In this document: piece after piece, positions 1 through 35,348 of the stretch | How the letters are laid out: each line of letters begins with the position of its first letter | Numbering within the stretch: the first letter of the stretch is position 1 | Origin: a virus | Virus record (IMG/VR): IMGVR_UViG_3300009161_002770 | Span: 1 to 35,348 of that record | Reading direction: 5' to 3' (one strand) | DNA: 35,348 nucleotides | Position numbers and translations under genes: made by a program | Notes under the pieces: model-generated | Database searches by the model: none | Told to the model about the DNA's origin: nothing | What the model saw: only the letters and a program-made list of their open reading frames with translations

Positions 1-3000
1 CCCATTACTGGAAAAATGCAGCCAAGCGAACGCGGTGCTCCTGGCGCTACTAGCGCCCCATCCATGATGGCTTCTGCAATGCGAAACCCGATTCAAACCT
101 TAAGGGGCCTTAAAGAGGGTCTGGTTGACCCTAGATCTGTTAAGGGCTGGGAAACAGGTACTAGCGCGCAACAAATGTTTGCTAGAGCTCAAATTGGTAT
201 GCAAGATGCTCAGGCAAAATATGGTAAAAGCATGGAGCGTTTTCAAACAGCGTTTGACAAAGGAAGAATTTCTGAAGAAAGACTGAATCATCTAAAAGAC
301 CAAGCCTATAAGCGACTCCTAAAAGAGCAGTCAGCTATTGCTACTGGTGGCTATGGCCAAAAATTTGCTGAAGAGATTGGTAAGTCTGGGTCCATTGCAA
401 AAGAGAATGGACGTCTTATGGGGGAAAGCTTTAAGGCGATGGGGAAAAACATTCGAAGCGCTGGGATAAACATTGCTGCTGCTGGTGGAAGGCTGCTTGG
501 TTCAGTAGGAATGATGGTTGCTTCTCCTATGGGAGCCATATTAGCTGCTACGGCTATATACAGCACTGCAAGAAGCATCCAGCAAAAAACTGGCGAGGGC
601 GCGAAGGCAGAGTTAAACGCAAATAATCTATCCCAGTATCAACAGGCTGCTGGGCAGTCTGGTACTGGCGGGGTAAAGCTAAAAGACCTGCTCAAGGCAG
701 AGTCTCAAAGCAATGCGAAATTAGACCAAGACTGGTCAAAAATTAGCGAGTCCGACACTGCGTTTGCTCAAAAAAATCCAGGTATGACCGATAAACGGTT
801 GATTGGAGCTAGTCAAACTAGCGCCTTGGCGTTTTTGCGTACAAATGTTGGAAAGACTGAAGGAAACGAAAAGGTACTTTCGCAAATTTCTGCGGACCTT
901 GTTAGGCAATTTGGCGCAACAGCTGCGCAGGGGATAGTAGATTCCTTTAAAAACAAGAGCGACGCAACTTTCGAAGATTATCAAAATCTAGCTCAACTGC
1001 AAAAAAGAGAATTTGACCGTTCAGGATACTTTAACCGGAACTCTGGATTTGGTAGCGCTCAGGGTTTGCAGGCATTAATCAGCGGTAATCTAAACTCGAT
1101 TGAGCAAAGAGCTGGAAATGTTGGCAGCGTTTATGGAACCGAAACAGGCTCTGCTTACCGCGCTCAACAAATGAACGCAGCTACTGGGATGCTGGCAGGA
1201 GGAGGCACTAATGCCTCTGGAGTGCGTGCGCTTGGGGAGGGCGCGCTAGCTCTTACAGGTGTTGGGTCTGCTTTTATAGGAAAAGACGCAAACCAATCAA
1301 ATACTGCTTACAACAACGCGCAAGCAAATATTTTTAAGGGATTTGGACTGCAGGGTAGGTACGCGCAAAGCAATCAAGAATACCAATCTTATTTCAGAAA
1401 ATTAGAAGACGAGTATGGTGGCGGAGCACGCCTTGGATATAGCTACTCAGGTTTAATGAATTATGCCTCGGGTAAGGAACTTGACTTAAACAAGCAGGAA
1501 GACAAACAAAAGGCTATTCAGGGATATATTGCTGATCGTGGTGGTAGCAGAGGTAAAGACATTGTTAATCAGGTGTGGGGTGAATATGCCGGAATGTCTT
1601 CTGCCGATTTGGACGCAAAAGTCAAGGATGGTCTCTCTAAAACCCCGAAGGCCGAAAACAACGAAGTTTTTAAGAATCAGGTTGCCCTAGTTGGAAAGCA
1701 GTACGGAGGAGATGGAAAAGACGTATCTACTTCTGTATTGCAAAATACAAAGGCAATATCGGCTCTTACCGAGCAGGTAGGAAACGCTGCCGTTCAGTTT
1801 AGTGCTGCCGGATCTTTAGCTGCTGACGCTGTTAAAAAGGCGGGAGGGGATTTTGACAAGGCTGCCGGAATCCTGCAGGCTATGGCAGCAACCACTGGTA
1901 ATCCAGCGGCTCAAGAACTTTACAACCAGACAGTATCTCAAATACGGCAAATCAAAAATATTCAGGGTCCAGTTCAAGGTATGGCTGACAGAGGAAAGAT
2001 TGCGCAAGACGCGTTTGAATTTGAAACAAAAGTTAATTCTAAAGGCGGTCCTATATCTGATGCCAATGCAGAAAAGCTTAAAGAAGGCAGAGCTACTCAA
2101 GAAGCAGCAGCTGGAGAATTTAAGCAGTTCCTGGTAAGCGTAATTCAAACACTGCGCTCTTACAACAAGCAAGTTAAGCGCTCAAACGAAGACTTTAGCC
2201 TCCAGCAAGAACGAGCAAGACTTGCTTTTGACAAAAATATCAAGCGCCAAATTGAAGATATGGCTAGTTCTCTGGCTGATCCTTATTCGCGAATACCTGC
2301 TCGCAGCACTCAAAGCACGTCAGCTATTGGCCAAAACATTGACGAGCAGAACCAAGTTTTCGACACTCAAAACAAAAACCTTAAAAAGGCAGAACAACTT
2401 GGTTTGGATAAAAAGACTATCCAATTCCTTGATTTGGCTAACCCAGAAAAAGCTCAACAACTTGCTCGTATAGTTGACGAAGCTGGGACCGATCCTAAGT
2501 CTGTTCAGCGCCTTAATAACTCGGTAAAAGAGCGTTTGCGTATTGTCGAAGAATCCCTAAAGAGCGGCTATAACAAGGTCTATGACCGTGCCGTTGAAGA
2601 CTTCAATCTGGCTATGCAGCAAGGAGCTGATGACTTTAACAAAGCTATGGAGCGTTTAGCCACTGACGTCAAAGATAATTTTACTGAAATTACAGGTGGT
2701 TATGACAAGTTAATTGGTGAGATTAAGCGCTTGGGTGGAGATGCAATTGGAGTAATGAAGCGTATTGATGCTTACTGGGCAAAATCCAAATTTCTACGAG
2801 GGGACGCAGAAGTCAGTGATCCAGGCACACCGACTGATCCTCCGAAAAATCAGACTACGAAGACAACGAATCCGCCTACTCCACCTCAGTGGAACAGTAA
2901 AGGTCAGATAGTTGACCCTGCTCCAACCCCTCCTGGTGATCAAAAAGATTCTGATGGGCGTTCAGTAGTAAACCCTGTTGGCTTGTACGGTTTTGCCAAC

Positions 3001-24555: not shown

Positions 24556-26403
24556 ATGGCACGCCCAAACTTGGTAGCAGCTATTGATTTTGCTTACTTT
24601 GGCACTCAGTACGAAGCCGGAGATGCATTCCCTACTGTGGGTCTTAACGACCTTGCCGTAAAGCGCTTGCTAGACAAGGGATACATAACTGCCGAGGGAA
24701 GCGGTGGTGGAGGCGTAACCGGCCCCACCGGCCCCACCGGTCCAACGGGATTAGACTTTGAAGTCTCCTCTCAATACCGCGCGGGTACAGGACAGGTTGT
24801 CAAATTTGACGATCCGACAAAACAGTCTATTATCGCCGCCCCAGATGCAACAGATAGTTACCCAACTGCCCAAAGATTAGTCGTGCAGGGTCCAAACGGA
24901 TTCCTCAACAGTGATGGAGAGGGCGGCGATGTTTACCTGTGGGCTGGTAACGGAGCTGCTACCAACGGATCTGGCGGTGACATTAAAGCTGATGGTGGCC
25001 AAGGATCTGGATCGGGCGAGGGTGGGAGCGTAAAGGTTAGAGGTGGCTATTCCCCATCGGGAACCGGAGGATTTGTGCAGGTAATCTCTGGATCCTCAAC
25101 CAACGGAGATGGCGGATATTTAGAGTTAAAATCCGGGTATTCAGACTCAGCTAGCGGTGGATCAGTAGAGATTCACTCCGGTCACAGCTCCGGTGGCGAC
25201 GGTGGAGACGTTAATATATACACCGGGTTTGGGACCAACGGAAACGCTGGAGACATTAATATATACGGTGGCCAGGGAACCACTGGAGACGGCGGAACGG
25301 TCACAATTTCCGGAGGAGACACCACTGGTGGTACTGCGGGAGACGTCCAACTACAAACTTACTCTGGCGGAAACATTATTCTTGTTGGTGACGGCGGAGA
25401 GTTCCTTAACGACGCAACTGATCCTGATAACCAGATTGCAACTATGGGAGACATAGCAGCTGGACCAACAGGACCAACCGGCGCTACTGGAGCAACTGGA
25501 GACCCAGGAACGGCTGGAGCCACTGGCGCTACTGGATCAACTGGAGCAACTGGATCAACAGGCACAACCGGAACGGCTGGAGCAACGGGTGCGACAGGAG
25601 CAACTGGAGCAACCGGTGCGACAGGAGCAACTGGAGCAACCGGATCGAACGGAAATAATTACCCAGGCGAGCCAACAGTTGATACTTGGACATTTAGAAC
25701 TGCGACCGGATCAACCGGATTGGCTTCTGGCGATATTAGATTCGATAGCGCAACTGTGTCCGGGGCTCCAGGAACCGGAATTGGAAACCTATACGTACAC
25801 GCAAACGCAAGTAGCGCAACAGATAGAGCAACATTCTTTACTAACGCCGCTATTGGCGACATCATCACCGTTAGATCAACCACAACGCCGACTTCTTTCT
25901 GGAAGTTCAAAGTAGTAGCTGCCGCTTCATCAGCGAGCTCGATAGTTACAGTCCCAGTAGTTGCAGTATCTGGCCCAGCCGTAGCAGGGTTTGCGGATAC
26001 AACAGTGACCGTAGCCCTGTACCAAAGCATTGGGCACAAATCAATATCGTTCTCTATTACTGGAATACTTTTAGTTGCCGATGGTTCAATGGACCACAAG
26101 ACTAAGTGGTACAACGATACTGGGGAACCAATTGTTATTACAAAGGTTAGAGCCGCTTTTGCAACCGCTCCAGTAACGACTGCTACAACCTTAGACGTAT
26201 TCAAAAACGGATCAGCAGGAGCGACAGTGTTATCCGCAGTGGTTTCAGTTGCTGCCGCTGCCACCACCGCTACACAAACAGCGTCTTCTACGCGAACGGC
26301 TACTTATCTAATATCTGGAACTGACTATTTGACGATGAAGGTTCCTTCTGTTGGCTCTGGTGGTGGCGGTAGAGAACTAGTTCTGACGGTTTGGTACGTT
26401 TAA
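24556..26403 (+). CDS. Tail fibre with collagen-like and Gly-rich repeats
   Basis: 615 residues. Likely trimeric host-binding fibre. Order: an N-terminal anchor (about 1-50), a short collagen run ([10 protein letters not shown] near 57-66), and a domain of repeated Gly-rich strands at about 115-285 ([32 protein letters not shown]) that suits a beta-helix or stacked beta fibre. A long Gly-x-y collagen run (about 302-370; GATGATGATG) follows, then a C-terminal head of about 240 residues with beta-rich, Thr/Ala-rich sequence. GCGGAGG precedes the ATG. Repetitive DNA here is prone to length change. Downstream genes start directly after its stop. Confidence 0.85.
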
Positions 26404-30053: not shown

Positions 30054-30482
30054 ATGCAGGACGCATTTGGTGTAGACCGTTCAGATATTTCCAAGGCAGC
30101 AATGCCGGGAGCCATTGAAAGTTCTGTTAAGTACTTCCAGGGCAGAAGAGCAGCAGCCACTTCAGCTGCGCGCGCTGGATCGCTAAGAAGCGCTGGCGGC
30201 CCTTCTCGAGTTTTGGGATCTAAGAGGCTTGGAATGCGCCGCACACGTAATGCCGCAAAACTAGAAAGCAAGATGGATACTATGCGGACAGCCCCTTACG
30301 GCACAAAGAATGCAACGTGGATAGACACCTTGGCCGGAGCCAGTAAAAAGCAGGCTAAGGACTGGAGTTACGTTACCTCTCCAAAGGGCTATGAAAGAGC
30401 TAACTGGAAGGCAGCGAAGAATGCCCTGAAGGCTAACTCAAGAAAGTCCCAAGGACCCACCACTCCAAGCCCATTTAACTAG
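30054..30482 (+). CDS. DAFGV-tagged basic protein 1
   Basis: 142 residues beginning MQDAFGVDRSDISKAAMPG. The first 14 residues match the N-terminal peptide shared by eight successive genes. The body is very basic and rich in Ala, Arg, Lys, Ser and Gly (ARAGSLRSAGG, KNALKANSRKSQ), with no membrane segment. DNA binding inside the head or interaction with scaffold would fit the charge, but this is inference. First gene of the cassette. Confidence 0.7.
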   Translation: MQDAFGVDRSDISKAAMPGAIESSVKYFQGRRAAATSAARAGSLRSAGGPSRVLGSKRLGMRRTRNAAKLESKMDTMRTAPYGTKNATWIDTLAGASKKQAKDWSYVTSPKGYERANWKAAKNALKANSRKSQGPTTPSPFN

Positions 30483-30496
30483 ACAGGGATTAAAAA

Positions 30497-32062
30497 ATGT
30501 TAGATGCGTTTGGCGTAGAACGTTCAGAAATTAGCAAGTCAATCAGTCCTAATCAACTAGCGGCGCTTAGCCGTATAGCTGGGACTGAAGGCGCAGGTGC
30601 TAAGTACGCGACCAAGAAGCTAGCTGCAGCAGCTTCTGGAAAGAAGTCTGCCGCCAGATCTCCTGCGCAAACTGCACGATGGGGTAACGTTTCGCGGAAG
30701 GGACAGAAAGAAGCAGCTAAATCAAGATCTGCTTTGTCTAGCGTTGCTAGGGAGCCAAGAGGGGGAAGCATAGGTTCTATGGAAGCATCAGCCGCAAAGG
30801 CTATTAGAAACAATAGGCCGCTATCACAGAAGTTTAGAGAAGCCGCTCAGCCAAGAGGGCAAAAGGTCCTCCAAGCTGTTGGAACAGGCAGTAGAGCCGT
30901 AGGTACCAGAGTTCGCGCAGTTGGATCAAGCGTTGGTTCAGGAACCGCTAGGGCCGCTAGAGCAGTAGGATCGGGAACTGCTAGAGCCACCAGAGCAGTT
31001 GGATCTGGAACGGCCAGAGCGGGCAGAACATTACGCGCAAGCATGACTAGAACTCCCAGAGCAGCCACTCCTACTACAGCAGCCGCCAAAGCACCCGCTG
31101 CAGCAACTGGAACAGAAGCTGGAACAGCAACGGTTAAGAATAAATCTAGATTTGGTAGAAACGCTGCCCTTATTGGTGGTGGAGCCGCAGTCGGAGCCGG
31201 TGGCATGGCGTATAGCGTAGACAGGAATAACCAGATGATGAGCAAGTCAGCATTCGGCGTAACCCATGAGGTTACTAAAGGACTTCTTCCTAAAATACCG
31301 CCGCAATTTATGGAGGGCGTTAACCCTAACTCTCCAAGGGGAGTAGCGATGCGATTAAAGATTGGCGCGGATAGGGCGACCAACAAGTCAGACACTATTC
31401 GCCGAATTAAATACGCTGATGGGAAAAAAGCAAAAGCTAAAGTTGTTTCCCGCGCCGTCTCAGAAGGAATGGACGATTTAAGACAGGGCTCTAGAAGAAT
31501 TGCTGGAAATTACTACACCAGGACTAAAAGCAAATACGTGCCTTCTGGTCACAGCACCCACACAATGGAGTCCAACGGAGGTCTTATATTCAAGCCACGC
31601 AAAATTGATTTCCGCAACACAGGCGAAGCTGTTATTCCACCTAATTACGAAAAGTTGTATGACTCAGGAATTAAGCTAACCACTGGCGCTAAGGTAGTTG
31701 GCGGATCTGCTGTTGCAGCAGGAGTAGGCGGTGGAGCATACGCATATGACAAGAAGAAGAATGTTTCTAAGTCAGCATTTGGTGTAGACCACTATGTATC
31801 AAAGGGTATATCTGCTGGTGTTATTAAACTCCCGACTCAGATACATTACCCGCGCATGGGAAACCCAACTAAGGCTGTAAACGCTTTTAAGACAGGTGCT
31901 ACAAGAGCCAAGACGGGTGGATCAGGAGTAGCTGGTCAGACCAAGAGGGGCATTGTAGGAGCGTTTAAGAGTTCCCCAGGAACCGTTATGGCTGCAGGAG
32001 CTGTAGGGGCTGGTGGAATAGGAGCCGCTGGATACGGCATGAATAGAAATAAGAGATACTAA
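30497..32062 (+). CDS. DAFGV-tagged protein 2, three-unit polyprotein-like
   Basis: 521 residues. Begins MLDAFGVERSEISKS. The peptide recurs inside at SKSAFGVTHEVTKG (249-262) and SKSAFGVDHYVSKG (424-437). Just before each internal copy lies a Gly/Ala-rich hydrophobic helix (LIGGGAAVGAGGMAYS; VVGGSAVAAGVGGGAYAY) and a charged turn. A third such helix (TVMAAGAVGAGGIGAAGYG) precedes the C-terminus NRNKRY. So the protein is three units of peptide, basic body and glycine-zipper helix. A low-complexity stretch (about 130-200; VGSGTARA repeats) lies in unit 1. The stop overlaps the next ATG (TAATG). Confidence 0.75.
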   Translation: MLDAFGVERSEISKSISPNQLAALSRIAGTEGAGAKYATKKLAAAASGKKSAARSPAQTARWGNVSRKGQKEAAKSRSALSSVAREPRGGSIGSMEASAAKAIRNNRPLSQKFREAAQPRGQKVLQAVGTGSRAVGTRVRAVGSSVGSGTARAARAVGSGTARATRAVGSGTARAGRTLRASMTRTPRAATPTTAAAKAPAAATGTEAGTATVKNKSRFGRNAALIGGGAAVGAGGMAYSVDRNNQMMSKSAFGVTHEVTKGLLPKIPPQFMEGVNPNSPRGVAMRLKIGADRATNKSDTIRRIKYADGKKAKAKVVSRAVSEGMDDLRQGSRRIAGNYYTRTKSKYVPSGHSTHTMESNGGLIFKPRKIDFRNTGEAVIPPNYEKLYDSGIKLTTGAKVVGGSAVAAGVGGGAYAYDKKKNVSKSAFGVDHYVSKGISAGVIKLPTQIHYPRMGNPTKAVNAFKTGATRAKTGGSGVAGQTKRGIVGAFKSSPGTVMAAGAVGAGGIGAAGYGMNRNKRY

Positions 32063-32307
32063 TGCAAGACGCATTCGGAGTAGAGAGATCCGATATTTCT
32101 AAAGGAATAAAGCCTGCTCACATTAACGCGATGGTTAGACATGGACAGCGAACTGGAAACGATGAACTGGTAGCTCGAGCATTGGCAGCTATGAACGGTA
32201 GGGCTGGATCTACAAGTAGGGGCTTATATTGGCGCAGTCAGACCACAAAGCCAGCAGCAGCTAAGAAAAAGGCTAAGGGCCTTCCTTACGTTAGGGGATA
32301 TAACTAA
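32062..32307 (+). CDS. DAFGV-tagged small basic protein 3
   Basis: 81 residues beginning MQDAFGVERSDISKGIKPA. After the shared peptide come a helix (INAMVRHGQRTGNDELVARA) and a basic tail (TTKPAAAKKKAKG). No membrane helix. ATG overlaps the stop of the polyprotein-like gene and its own stop overlaps the next ATG (TAATG in both cases), so the genes are joined with no spacer. Confidence 0.7.
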   Translation: MQDAFGVERSDISKGIKPAHINAMVRHGQRTGNDELVARALAAMNGRAGSTSRGLYWRSQTTKPAAAKKKAKGLPYVRGYN

Positions 32308-32603
32308 TGAAAGACGCATTTGGAGTAGAAGTCTCCAAGGCAATGTTTCCCGGAGCTGCGGCTAGAGTAATCCCAAAAACTTTAAAGTCACTTAAGCCCA
32401 GCCCTTTAGTTGCTTCTAAAGTTAGGCCACCCACTACTGGAATTAAACCTATGACTCCAACGGGTCCTAAGTCAATTAAGCGCAGCCCTTATTCGTCACC
32501 CACTACTGGAATTAAACCTATGACTCCAACGGGTCCTAGAACACCGAGTGGCACCCCAATGACAAACAATGCACGCTTCGCGTCACGAATAAACCCCAGA
32601 TAG
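32307..32603 (+). CDS. DAFGV-tagged Pro/Thr-rich protein 4
   Basis: 98 residues beginning MKDAFGVEVSKAMFPG, a shorter form of the peptide without the RSD insert. Proline-rich and basic, probably disordered. An internal repeat TTGIKPMTPTGP occurs twice, encoded by an exact 42-base repeat. Confidence 0.7.
   Translation: MKDAFGVEVSKAMFPGAAARVIPKTLKSLKPSPLVASKVRPPTTGIKPMTPTGPKSIKRSPYSSPTTGIKPMTPTGPRTPSGTPMTNNARFASRINPR
32428..32538 (+). repeat. Exact 42-base direct repeat inside protein 4
   Basis: 32428-32469 and 32497-32538 are identical and code for PTTGIKPMTPTGP in the same frame, 69 bases apart. Identity at synonymous positions shows a recent duplication. Confidence 0.85.
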
Positions 32604-32610
32604 GTAACTA

Positions 32611-32988
32611 ATGATTGACGCATTTGGAGTAGAGATCTCTAAGGGTATGCCTTCATATCTACGCGGAGCTGTAAAAGCATCTGATGCTGCCGCCAAGGGA
32701 ACCAAGGGCATGGAAATGATGTTCGCGCGTCAAAAGGCGTTACCTGGGTCTATTGGTCGTGCAACTGAAGCAACTATGTGGACTGGCTATAGATCAGCAG
32801 CTCGCACGCAACCAGCAGGAATGTACCAAGCCAATAGAATAGGGAGATACGGTGCGGGAAAAAAGGTTTCCAGCCCTGCTTCTATTAAATACTCTATTAA
32901 ATCGGGTTCTAAGGCAAAGCAAAGAGGCCTTAAATTGCAAAGTACATTAACACCATCTCCTAAGACTAGACCTCTAAGGAACATCTAA
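32611..32988 (+). CDS. DAFGV-tagged basic protein 5
   Basis: 125 residues beginning MIDAFGVEISKGMPS. Basic, Ala/Lys/Arg-rich body (SIKYSIKSGSKAKQRGLKL). Ends in PKTRPLRNI, the same C-terminus as protein 6, and the underlying bases are identical. Ends TAATG with the next gene. Confidence 0.7.
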   Translation: MIDAFGVEISKGMPSYLRGAVKASDAAAKGTKGMEMMFARQKALPGSIGRATEATMWTGYRSAARTQPAGMYQANRIGRYGAGKKVSSPASIKYSIKSGSKAKQRGLKLQSTLTPSPKTRPLRNI

Positions 32989-33298
32989 TGCAAGATGCAT
33001 TCGGTATAGATCGCACTGATATCTCTAAGGGCTTGCCTTCGCCCGCTAAAACATATCTTAAGCTTCGCTATCGCAATATGGGAGACTTCTCTAAACCACA
33101 GGTTAAAAAGCCTAAAAGTAGATATATTAATTTGAAGATGGAATCCAATAAGCACGGTAAGATTGCGCGAGATTACGGCGTACCAGGTATAGGAGAAGAG
33201 CACATCGCTCGAGGTAAATGGTGGAAAGATCTTCGCGACCAAGAATATAGTTCTGCGCTACCAGCTCCTAAGACTAGACCTCTAAGGAACATCTAATG
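32957..33298 (+). repeat. Identical 34-base gene-junction repeat
   Basis: 32957-32990 and 33265-33298 are the same: the last codons (PKTRPLRNI), the stop and the ATG of the next gene. Together with the shared N-terminal peptide they bracket gene 6 completely, as if it were a module inserted or duplicated by homologous exchange at junctions. Confidence 0.85.
32988..33296 (+). CDS. DAFGV-tagged basic protein 6
   Basis: 102 residues beginning MQDAFGIDRTDISKGLPS, the most divergent form of the peptide (Ile for Val, Thr for Ser). Very basic body with many Lys and Arg (KPQVKKPKSRYINLKMESNK). The C-terminus PKTRPLRNI equals that of protein 5 although the bodies differ, so the gene is a mosaic. No known domain. 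Confidence 0.7.
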   Translation: MQDAFGIDRTDISKGLPSPAKTYLKLRYRNMGDFSKPQVKKPKSRYINLKMESNKHGKIARDYGVPGIGEEHIARGKWWKDLRDQEYSSALPAPKTRPLRNI

Positions 33299-34807
33299 AT
33301 TGACGCATTTGGTGTTGAGATAAGCAAGGGCGTTATTCAGCGTACCTACTATGCTGCCCAAGCATCTTCAGCCAACCCAAATGCGGGAGTAAGAGATAAC
33401 GCTAAATTCATCTATAACGCTAGATTAAAGCGGGTAAATAGAGGAAATGTATCTAAGGCTGGAGGTATTCCAACCAAGCTACTTCCTGCTGCCGAAAAGC
33501 TTATAGAATCTCGGGCATTTAAAAGACTTCAGCAAAGTAACATGCACAACAAGATCACAGCGCGTCGCCAAAAGCAGATGGATAAGTGGCTACCTGAAGG
33601 GCAAGGAATGCCCTTAAAAGATGGTGGCGAACCAGCGGCATTTGTTGGGGAAAGAAAGCTTTATAAGCCGGGAGAGTTTTCTGAAACAGTGCGCCCCTCT
33701 ATAGAAAAAGATCCCAAACTACAAGAAATCGAAAATTTGGGACATAGAAGACGCCAAGCAGCGCTAAAGCTTGGCGAAGTAGCCGGTTTAAGAATTGGCG
33801 AATTTAAAGTTTCTAATGCCCAAGGGGTGAAGGGCGCTGAAGCTTTCGCTACCATTTGGCCAACTGGGAGAATAAGACCAGAAGGATTAATCGCCGAAAA
33901 AGGTGACAGGATATCTGGCCCAGCCTTACTTTCTCACTTCAATAGAAAAAACAAAGAAATAGAATCCCCGGGGATGCTTCTAAATGCAGGCATTTACTCA
34001 TCTTCCCCTAAAGAGGCAACTGGTGCAAGAGTTTGGCGTACTAAATCTCTTGATGCTAGATATATGCCAGGCAGAGGAATGGGAAGCTCTGATAAAGAAA
34101 TATTTTATAGTCGTAAAAAGCACGCTGCCGACGTAAAAAGAAATAATAGAGATAAAAATGGGAAAAAATCTGTTATTAACGCCAGAAATTTCACGTCTGG
34201 AAAAGAATTTATAACCCCTGATGGGAAAATAGTTTCCCAAAAAGATATAGACACTATGCACCACATGTCATATAAAAAAGCAATGGCCACTAGAAATCCG
34301 CATGCTGATCCCAATCCTAGTGGAAAACTTAGACTTGGCATACACGGAAGAAAATTAACGGAAGAAGAAATTAAAGGTCTTCGGGTGCACTCTATGAAGG
34401 CTAGAGTTGGCCTGGCACGTCCAAGCGATACGACTTACACGGTTAAGGTAAAAAATCCAGAAACTGGAGTAATTGAACGAAAGAAAGTTGGCTGGACTCC
34501 AGCAATGCACGAATACATGTCAAATATGTCTTGGAATGGGTATGTTAAGGGAAGAACTCCTTTTCTTACCAAGACCAAGAGAGCTACTGTCGGGGCTAGC
34601 GTTGCCGGAGCGGGTTATATAGGGGCCAATAGGGACAGCACCCCGCGTAAGGAATGGACCGAAAACGAGCACCCAAGAGGCTACGGAGGAGAGTTTAGAG
34701 TGAAGGGATACAAGAGCGCTTACAAGTCTGTTTTGGATCGCCAGCGAAAGGTGTCTAAGTCCTCTGAGGGCTCTAATCAGATAAGCTCAAACCTATGGTC
34801 GAGTTAA
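33296..34807 (+). CDS. DAFGV-tagged large protein 7
   Basis: 503 residues beginning MIDAFGVEISKGVIQ. Basic throughout. A Gly/Ala helix (ATVGASVAGAGYIGA) lies near residue 430, as in protein 2. Next is KEWTENEHPRGYGGEFRVKG, resembling the short HPR..GGEF/GRF stretches of phage minor head proteins. The C-terminus has KVSKSSEGSN, which may be a decayed internal copy of the SKSAFGV peptide. The middle (about 170-400) has mixed structure with no enzyme motif I can name. Head-associated role is inferred. Confidence 0.7.
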   Translation: MIDAFGVEISKGVIQRTYYAAQASSANPNAGVRDNAKFIYNARLKRVNRGNVSKAGGIPTKLLPAAEKLIESRAFKRLQQSNMHNKITARRQKQMDKWLPEGQGMPLKDGGEPAAFVGERKLYKPGEFSETVRPSIEKDPKLQEIENLGHRRRQAALKLGEVAGLRIGEFKVSNAQGVKGAEAFATIWPTGRIRPEGLIAEKGDRISGPALLSHFNRKNKEIESPGMLLNAGIYSSSPKEATGARVWRTKSLDARYMPGRGMGSSDKEIFYSRKKHAADVKRNNRDKNGKKSVINARNFTSGKEFITPDGKIVSQKDIDTMHHMSYKKAMATRNPHADPNPSGKLRLGIHGRKLTEEEIKGLRVHSMKARVGLARPSDTTYTVKVKNPETGVIERKKVGWTPAMHEYMSNMSWNGYVKGRTPFLTKTKRATVGASVAGAGYIGANRDSTPRKEWTENEHPRGYGGEFRVKGYKSAYKSVLDRQRKVSKSSEGSNQISSNLWSS

Positions 34808-34817
34808 AGGACGCGAA

Positions 34818-35348
34818 ATGAAAGACGCATTTGGTGTAGAGCGTATTTCTAAGGGCGCGAATCCGGCAAATCCAGCGCAAATAGTAGGACAGTTAAAATT
34901 ATTTCCGCTTAAAGGCATGACAAGAGCAACAAGAGCAAAAAGGCTCCCATATAAGCAGCCTAAGTTTAGACGAAGCCAAGAAAAACAAATAAAAGGGCAA
35001 ACATATTTATCCGTTCCAAGGGGCCGTCAATCCGGTGGTAAAGAATTTAAAATAAATTCATCCGGGCCAGGAAGAAAGACGTCTAATGCTTTATCTCCAG
35101 AGGGGCAACAAAAACTTGCAAACAAACTAAAAGAACTGGATAGAAAATATGCCGGTCGTTTTGCTTCACAGGGGCCAAAAGTATCAAGAAACGACCCCTC
35201 GGACACGACTGGTGGCCAGGGAGCGGGCGCCAGAAAAGCAGTAAACGTAATTAGATTGTCTGGAAGGCAAAGAGTCGGCAAATCTGACGCATTTGGCGTT
35301 GAGGTATCTAAAGGCGTGCCTCATTTCCCTGACTGGATGCACGCTAGG
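34818..35348 (+). CDS. DAFGV-tagged basic protein 8, 3' end off window
   Basis: 177 codons visible, beginning MKDAFGVERISKGANP, with no stop before the window end. Highly basic (TRATRAKRLPYKQPKFRRSQ). An internal copy of the peptide, KSDAFGVEVSKGVPHF, appears at 155-170, so this is a second in-frame fusion of cassette units. Nothing else recognised. A GGACGCGAA stretch before the ATG is a weak SD. Confidence 0.7.
   Translation, partial: MKDAFGVERISKGANPANPAQIVGQLKLFPLKGMTRATRAKRLPYKQPKFRRSQEKQIKGQTYLSVPRGRQSGGKEFKINSSGPGRKTSNALSPEGQQKLANKLKELDRKYAGRFASQGPKVSRNDPSDTTGGQGAGARKAVNVIRLSGRQRVGKSDAFGVEVSKGVPHFPDWMHAR

Follow-up and report, generated by a model that had tools for sequence, protein, structure and literature searches.

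The 35,348 nucleotides of viral DNA analysed here (IMG/VR record IMGVR_UViG_3300009161_002770, positions 1 to 35,348; hereafter the window) contain a single unbroken reading frame of 521 codons (30497-32062, plus strand), in which three units, each headed by the same kind of short peptide tag, are fused in frame. This tag recurs on many proteins of a lineage of uncultured phages. We propose that it is a procapsid-targeting peptide, and that the 521-residue protein is a product of a modular system of tagged cargo, with [IV][S/T]K as a likely site for an XkdF-type protease; taken as a whole, this explanation has in our view an even chance of being correct.

The three units follow one layout, i.e. 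a tag, a body and then a Gly/Ala helix-like stretch, with the tag cores beginning at residues 3, 251 and 426. Tag 1 (DAFGVERSEISK, residues 3-14, positions 30503-30538), tag 2 (SAFGVTHEVTK, residues 251-261, 31247-31279, with MSK directly before it) and tag 3 (SAFGVDHYVSK, residues 426-436, 31772-31804, directly preceded by VSK) score 18.9, 21.9 and 27.9, respectively, against a matrix built solely from the N-terminal tags of other phages. The next best site in the protein reaches -11.1, and 2000 shuffles gave at most 10.5. The same ORF, 100% identical, is present in a contig of another strain (IMGVR 3300009181_003135, here L003) and is therefore not a one-off assembly error. With tag scores far above those of shuffles and an intact ORF in a second contig, the initial annotation was right in reading this protein as three tagged units in one frame.

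All three units are basic (Lys plus Arg versus Asp plus Glu: 42/10, 32/14 and 14/1). Their Gly/Ala stretches (NAALIGGGAAVGAGGMAYSVDRNN, AKVVGGSAVAAGVGGGAYAYDKKK and GTVMAAGAVGAGGIGAAGYGMNRNKRY, the last written up to the stop codon) occupy residues 223-239 (31163-31213), 400-416 (31694-31744) and 497-513 (31985-32035), and each is followed by a short polar tail. Since the units are rich in Gly and Ala, and 7-42% of their shuffled versions yield such a stretch, its presence in one unit says little beyond composition; as a class, however, tagged proteins carry it far more often than untagged ones (33/74 versus 38/731, P = 6e-19). Two structure predictions had a mean pLDDT of 44 and 42, too poor for a structure search.

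Around this gene the window carries seven more tagged ORFs, all on the plus strand, bringing the number of its tags to 11. One lies upstream (30054-30482, 142 aa, MQDAFGVDRSDISK). Downstream, the ATG of an 81-aa ORF (32062-32307, MQDAFGVERSDISK) overlaps the stop codon of the 521-aa ORF, and there follow ORFs of 98 aa (32307-32603, MKDAFGVEVSK), 125 aa (32611-32988, MIDAFGVEISK), 102 aa (32988-33296, MQDAFGIDRTDISK) and 503 aa (33296-34807, MIDAFGVEISK, with the motif WTENEHPRGYGGEF in its C-terminal part). The last ORF (34818-35348) is open at the contig end and contains two tags, DAFGVERISK (34824-34853) and DAFGVEVSK (35286-35312), the second being the internal tag that had already been ascribed to this gene (gene 8). 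No convincing match to Pfam or PHROG was obtained for any tagged protein of the window, and IMG/VR searches for homologues of the 503-aa protein, of the 521-aa protein and of its units 2 and 3 returned the second strain alone.

Several smaller features of this cassette may be mentioned. A recurrent motif, W.E..HPRG.GG[RKE]F, is present near the C-terminus of the 503-aa protein, in a product of contig L048 (921-1823) and in the head-module polyvalent and MuF proteins of contigs G011, G005 and G012. Near-identical 39-nt gene ends (PKTRPLRNI and stop; 32952-32990 and 33260-33298) precede two of the tagged genes and are probably a copied ribosome-binding site. The conserved C-termini RPLRNI and KRxLP were also considered as a second tag and rejected since, on sequence grounds, they appear to be better accounted for by the ribosome-binding site of the following gene (CTAAGGAACATCTAATG), which overlaps them.

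Scanning of IMG/VR with degenerate DNA patterns for the tag yielded about 70 stretches and, after inspection, 43 distinct tagged contigs. GC-rich contigs contain long antisense ORFs, and genes were called by codon-position GC; many apparent internal tags in these contigs owed their position to a spurious upstream extension of the ORF and were excluded. The core of the tag is [S/D]AFG[V/I][D/E][H/R] (consensus SAFGV[D/E]H), with D-A-F-G-V-E-R as the variant of the freshwater group. Among the unique tags, 104 are N-terminal, about 14 internal and 13 C-terminal, the last class being made up of proteins that end in the tag or within 13 residues of it (e.g. KKSHDPRMSAFGVEH in L022 and YAKRDAVSAFGIDHSH in L016, each followed by the stop codon); one further entry in this class is a window ORF cut by the contig end. 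The seven residues of the core are kept at every position; the ISK part is present only where a body follows, and most C-terminal tags are preceded by KRDxx instead of [IV]SK. The scan patterns contain ISK, so that its share among N-terminal tags is biased upward; this bias does not extend to the C-terminal tags, which are without ISK and came to light solely as neighbours.

N-terminal tags stand on mostly unrelated bodies, several per phage, encoded in or near the head module, and their carriers may well be located inside the head. In one family the tag is found at opposite ends: the proteins of L022 and L038 end in MSAFGVEH, and that of L047 begins with MRSAFGIEHGVVSK (E 1e-128). Across 162 tags, the identity of the AFGV codons is 0.93, 1.00 and 0.38 at codon positions 1, 2 and 3, respectively (0.95, 1.00 and 0.59 for the 11 tags of the window). 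Because third positions vary and the first two hardly do, it is the peptide that is conserved.

Searches of INPHARED (tblastn) with tagged proteins or with the tag gave no matches, the 25-aa tag query being too short to prove absence, and a scan of GTDB returned two matches only, neither of them this kind of tag. The isolates nearest by portal (Arthrobacter phages Laroye and Ottawa, and the faecal MT835491) have head regions without the tag, and a literature search on the letters of the tag retrieved nothing relevant and no phage paper.

Ten large tagged contigs share a head module with the order terL, portal, a large 'polyvalent' protein (1200 aa), MuF, XkdF, scaffold, decoration protein and capsid, and tagged genes lie between and around these genes. 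XkdF was named by PF14550 (Peptidase_S78_2), portals and capsids by tblastn to annotated isolates, and the remaining genes by sequence and order. PF14550 was matched in 13 of 20 tagged records, the misses being mainly short or partial contigs, and in ten contigs of the lineage the XkdF gene is situated near the MuF, scaffold and capsid genes. In G008 the portal and in G013 the MuF protein are themselves tagged; no tag was seen in scaffold or capsid proteins. The window phage belongs to the tagged lineage, since its DnaE (identity 57% with G004 and 55% with G002), DnaB, primase and terminase small subunit-like gene all match these contigs. The window contig is without a head module, and we infer from the relatives that its phage encodes XkdF. 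The presence of WhiB genes points to actinobacterial hosts.

The sequence next to the core resembles a protease site. A [IV]SK-like motif follows 99 of the 104 N-terminal tags, and the residue after its Lys is Gly, Ala or Ser in 65 of these 99, against a background of 35% (P = 6e-10). Outside tags, [ILV]SK[AGS] was observed 21 times in scaffold proteins versus 0.4 expected, a count inflated by ten homologues that share sites and are not independent events. The corresponding numbers are 12 versus 1.8 in polyvalent proteins, 6 versus 1.3 in XkdF and 15 versus 4.0 in tagged proteins; other proteins (23 versus 15.4) lie nearer expectation, and no copy was found in terminase, portal, MuF, decoration or capsid proteins. 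As [ILV]AK[AGS] is equally enriched in the scaffold (23 versus 0.8), the [ILV]SK[AGS] signal may partly reflect helix composition. Judged from such patterns and from the XkdF protease encoded in the head module, cleavage at [IV]SK is a tentative prediction, to which we give a little less than an even chance. A literature search found no title or abstract on the specificity of XkdF proteases. Most scaffold proteins of the ten contigs (e.g. L103, 5396-6223) also contain VGKSAFF; its resemblance to VSKSAFG, the internal form of the tag, raises the possibility that the tag imitates this site.

For three families of units, some phages have the unit as a gene of its own and others have it within a fusion, joined at the tag or at a VSK motif. 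Unit B has its own gene in L014, L031, L022, L068 and L059, and L016 (junction KNQVSK-GKRIMSDAE) and L062 (GEMSK-RIMSDAE) have it fused downstream of another unit. Unit C forms the end of the 492-aa protein of L038, after KGKVSKSAFGVDHEVSK; L016 and L024 encode it separately, with an N-terminal tag. The 270-aa protein of L029 consists of two tagged units, the second of which is a separate gene in L016 and is fused on both sides in G011. Single ORFs whose units are separate in relatives thus exist for these three families; no stand-alone homologue was found for any of the three units of the 521-aa protein itself.

A difference between the two strains of the window phage provides a further case. 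They diverge after 34857, and what distinguishes them is exactly one in-frame unit: the interval 34848-35311 (plus strand) is missing from L003, with a crossover at TCTAA (34848-34852 / 35307-35311; 459 bp, in frame), so that the first tag is joined directly to the body that follows the second tag in the window. The difference sits at a contig end and an assembly fault is possible, but the second tag at 35286 has codons unlike those of any other tag on the window contig. The interchangeability of fused and separate units, suggested by the initial annotation, therefore holds for the lineage (units B and C, the second unit of L029, and the strain pair), and the comparison of unit borders in relatives that it proposed did reveal split versions, though of unit families other than those of the 521-aa protein. 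Loss of stop codons, which it offered as one route of merging and splitting, fits only part of the data: the strain pair reflects recombination between tags, and VSK is retained at many junctions, whether or not the tag is there too. In another contig of a window-phage strain (L091, G001; 3-644, minus strand), a tagged protein contains a tandem unit duplication (MPRAARAI... / MPRAARAF...), and of the tag of the second copy only EIYKG is left.

The tag is independent of position, is found on different bodies and clusters with head genes, and these properties suggest a targeting peptide, a function that on present sequence evidence we consider somewhat probable. According to our proposal, the SAFGV[D/E]H peptide would recruit proteins into the phage procapsid, and the tag would be the place at which tagged head-cargo units are reshuffled, joined or separated, the 521-aa ORF being one product of this process. 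The [IV][S/T]K beside the core would be the most likely site for the XkdF-type prohead protease, which would remove the tag from N-tagged proteins and cut the 521-residue chain into three basic proteins, each ending in a Gly/Ala helix. The released proteins may stay with the DNA in the head, and may also be ejected.

It is conceivable that the tag serves for docking to the head and is not cleaved at all, in which case the 521-residue chain would stay whole and dock at several points, as beads on a string. The occurrence of the core at either end and internally, as well as the many C-terminal tags without [IV]SK, would agree with this, and cleavage has so far only been proposed; nevertheless, nearly all N-terminal tags are followed by the [IV]SK-like motif, usually with a small residue after it, and scaffold, XkdF and polyvalent proteins show an excess of the motif that capsid, portal and terminase do not. 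We regard it as rather unlikely. The units could also be made separately from internal in-frame starts, with no polyprotein, a route absent from the initial annotation and open to only one of the two internal tags of the 521-aa ORF. Unit 2 could be translated on its own, as AGGA, 8 nt and ATGATG (31223-31240, plus strand; Met247/248) precede its tag, and comparable arrangements are found in L029, whose internal tag keeps MISAFG behind AAGG, and in L076 (GTG behind GGAGG). However, a nearby start with a Shine-Dalgarno match accompanies just 3 of the 14 unambiguous internal tags; tag 3 of the 521-aa ORF, for which there is no start codon within 15 codons upstream, the internal tag of gene 8 and most others are without such signals. 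Internal starts therefore do not explain the overall pattern, although they fit recent fusions, and nested genes are an improbable general solution.

The crossover between the two strains, together with the repeated DNA at gene starts in which the cassette is rich, might indicate that the tag is mainly a DNA recombination hot-spot for gene shuffling and that the peptide itself is inert. This seems very improbable to us: third codon positions drift yet the peptide is kept, and homologues with the tag at opposite ends are inexplicable by recombination at a gene start. There is likewise a slim chance that the tag directs its carriers elsewhere than to the head, for instance, once injected, to the membrane or nucleoid of the host, with the genes lying in the head module because their products are injected. 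Tagged proteins are basic, with Gly/Ala helices often at the end, and one of them matches a GNAT acetyltransferase model, but the tag is also borne by portal and MuF proteins, which are fixed parts of the head.

Procapsid targeting, our preferred reading, has a well-known parallel in the capsid-targeting sequence of phage T4 (IPI-III and Alt; protease gp21), which is also a short peptide common to sequence-unrelated small head proteins. Ten residues of T4 IPIII suffice for targeting, the targeting and processing positions are separate, and gp21 recognizes a very short cut motif and cuts the scaffold into multiple fragments (PMC9026906). Both systems would combine targeting residues with a short protease motif that follows them and is present in several copies in the scaffold. 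By analogy the tag may work like the T4 sequence. The two differ in several respects: no sequence similarity between them was noticed; the T4 sequence stands at the N-terminus, with additional C-terminal processing in Alt, whereas the present core can be terminal at either end or internal; the T4 cut is after Glu and the candidate site here is after Lys; and the protease of the tagged lineage is XkdF (PF14550), apparently of another family than gp21. A second parallel is that with HK97 gp4 and other XkdF-type (Peptidase_S78_2) prohead proteases: XkdF is encoded in the head module of the lineage, and the HK97 cut at K103/S104 (PMC10275583) resembles the proposed cut between Lys and Gly, Ala or Ser. 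In HK97 it is the capsid protein itself that is cut, whereas the capsid protein here is without the motif, and scaffold and cargo are the proposed substrates.

Polyvalent proteins are large and multidomain, have been proposed to be packaged in the head and injected, and sometimes include MuF, ParB or autoprotease domains (Iyer et al. 2017, PMC5512222). The 1200-aa protein of the head module is of that general kind. The 521-aa protein, in which no Pfam or PHROG domain was found, lies outside this class, which is defined by at least two enzyme or effector domains; polyvalent proteins are enzyme-domain fusions without a shared peptide, as opposed to the units described here, which are basic, mostly lack domains and share a tag. 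In encapsulins, short terminal cargo-loading peptides take different cargo into a shell of the HK97 fold. These shells are bacterial, and the peptide is C-terminal and unrelated in sequence, with no protease and no fused multi-tag chains known.

In uncultured actinobacterial viruses, the peptide has the look of a 'pack me into the head' label that has not been recorded before. In its widest form, the proposal would describe a seven-residue, position-independent head-packaging label used across an uncultured actinobacterial phage lineage on dozens of proteins, together with a Lys-specific XkdF protease and with cargo built of interchangeable units, single or in polyproteins; this we hold to be plausible, if rather less than evenly likely. 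If true, the tag would be a new transplantable code for loading proteins into phage heads, functional at either protein end, and sequence alone would suffice to predict what the virions of many uncultured actinobacterial phages carry as cargo. A given head protein could moreover be compared in its fused and separate states in a natural system, and there would be a rule of cleavage by XkdF proteases that can be tested.

Three other observations were made in the course of this study. A tagged 452-aa protein of L103 (3172-4530) includes the stretch VVRYKSGHVVPFDGNHRASARVARG, which is ParB/sulfiredoxin-like by eye and gave no Pfam match. The terminase large subunit ORF of L048 (11314-13038) contains an apparent intein. 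Finally, the window encodes a fibre-like protein of 615 aa (24556-26403) with collagen-type Gly-X-Thr repeats.
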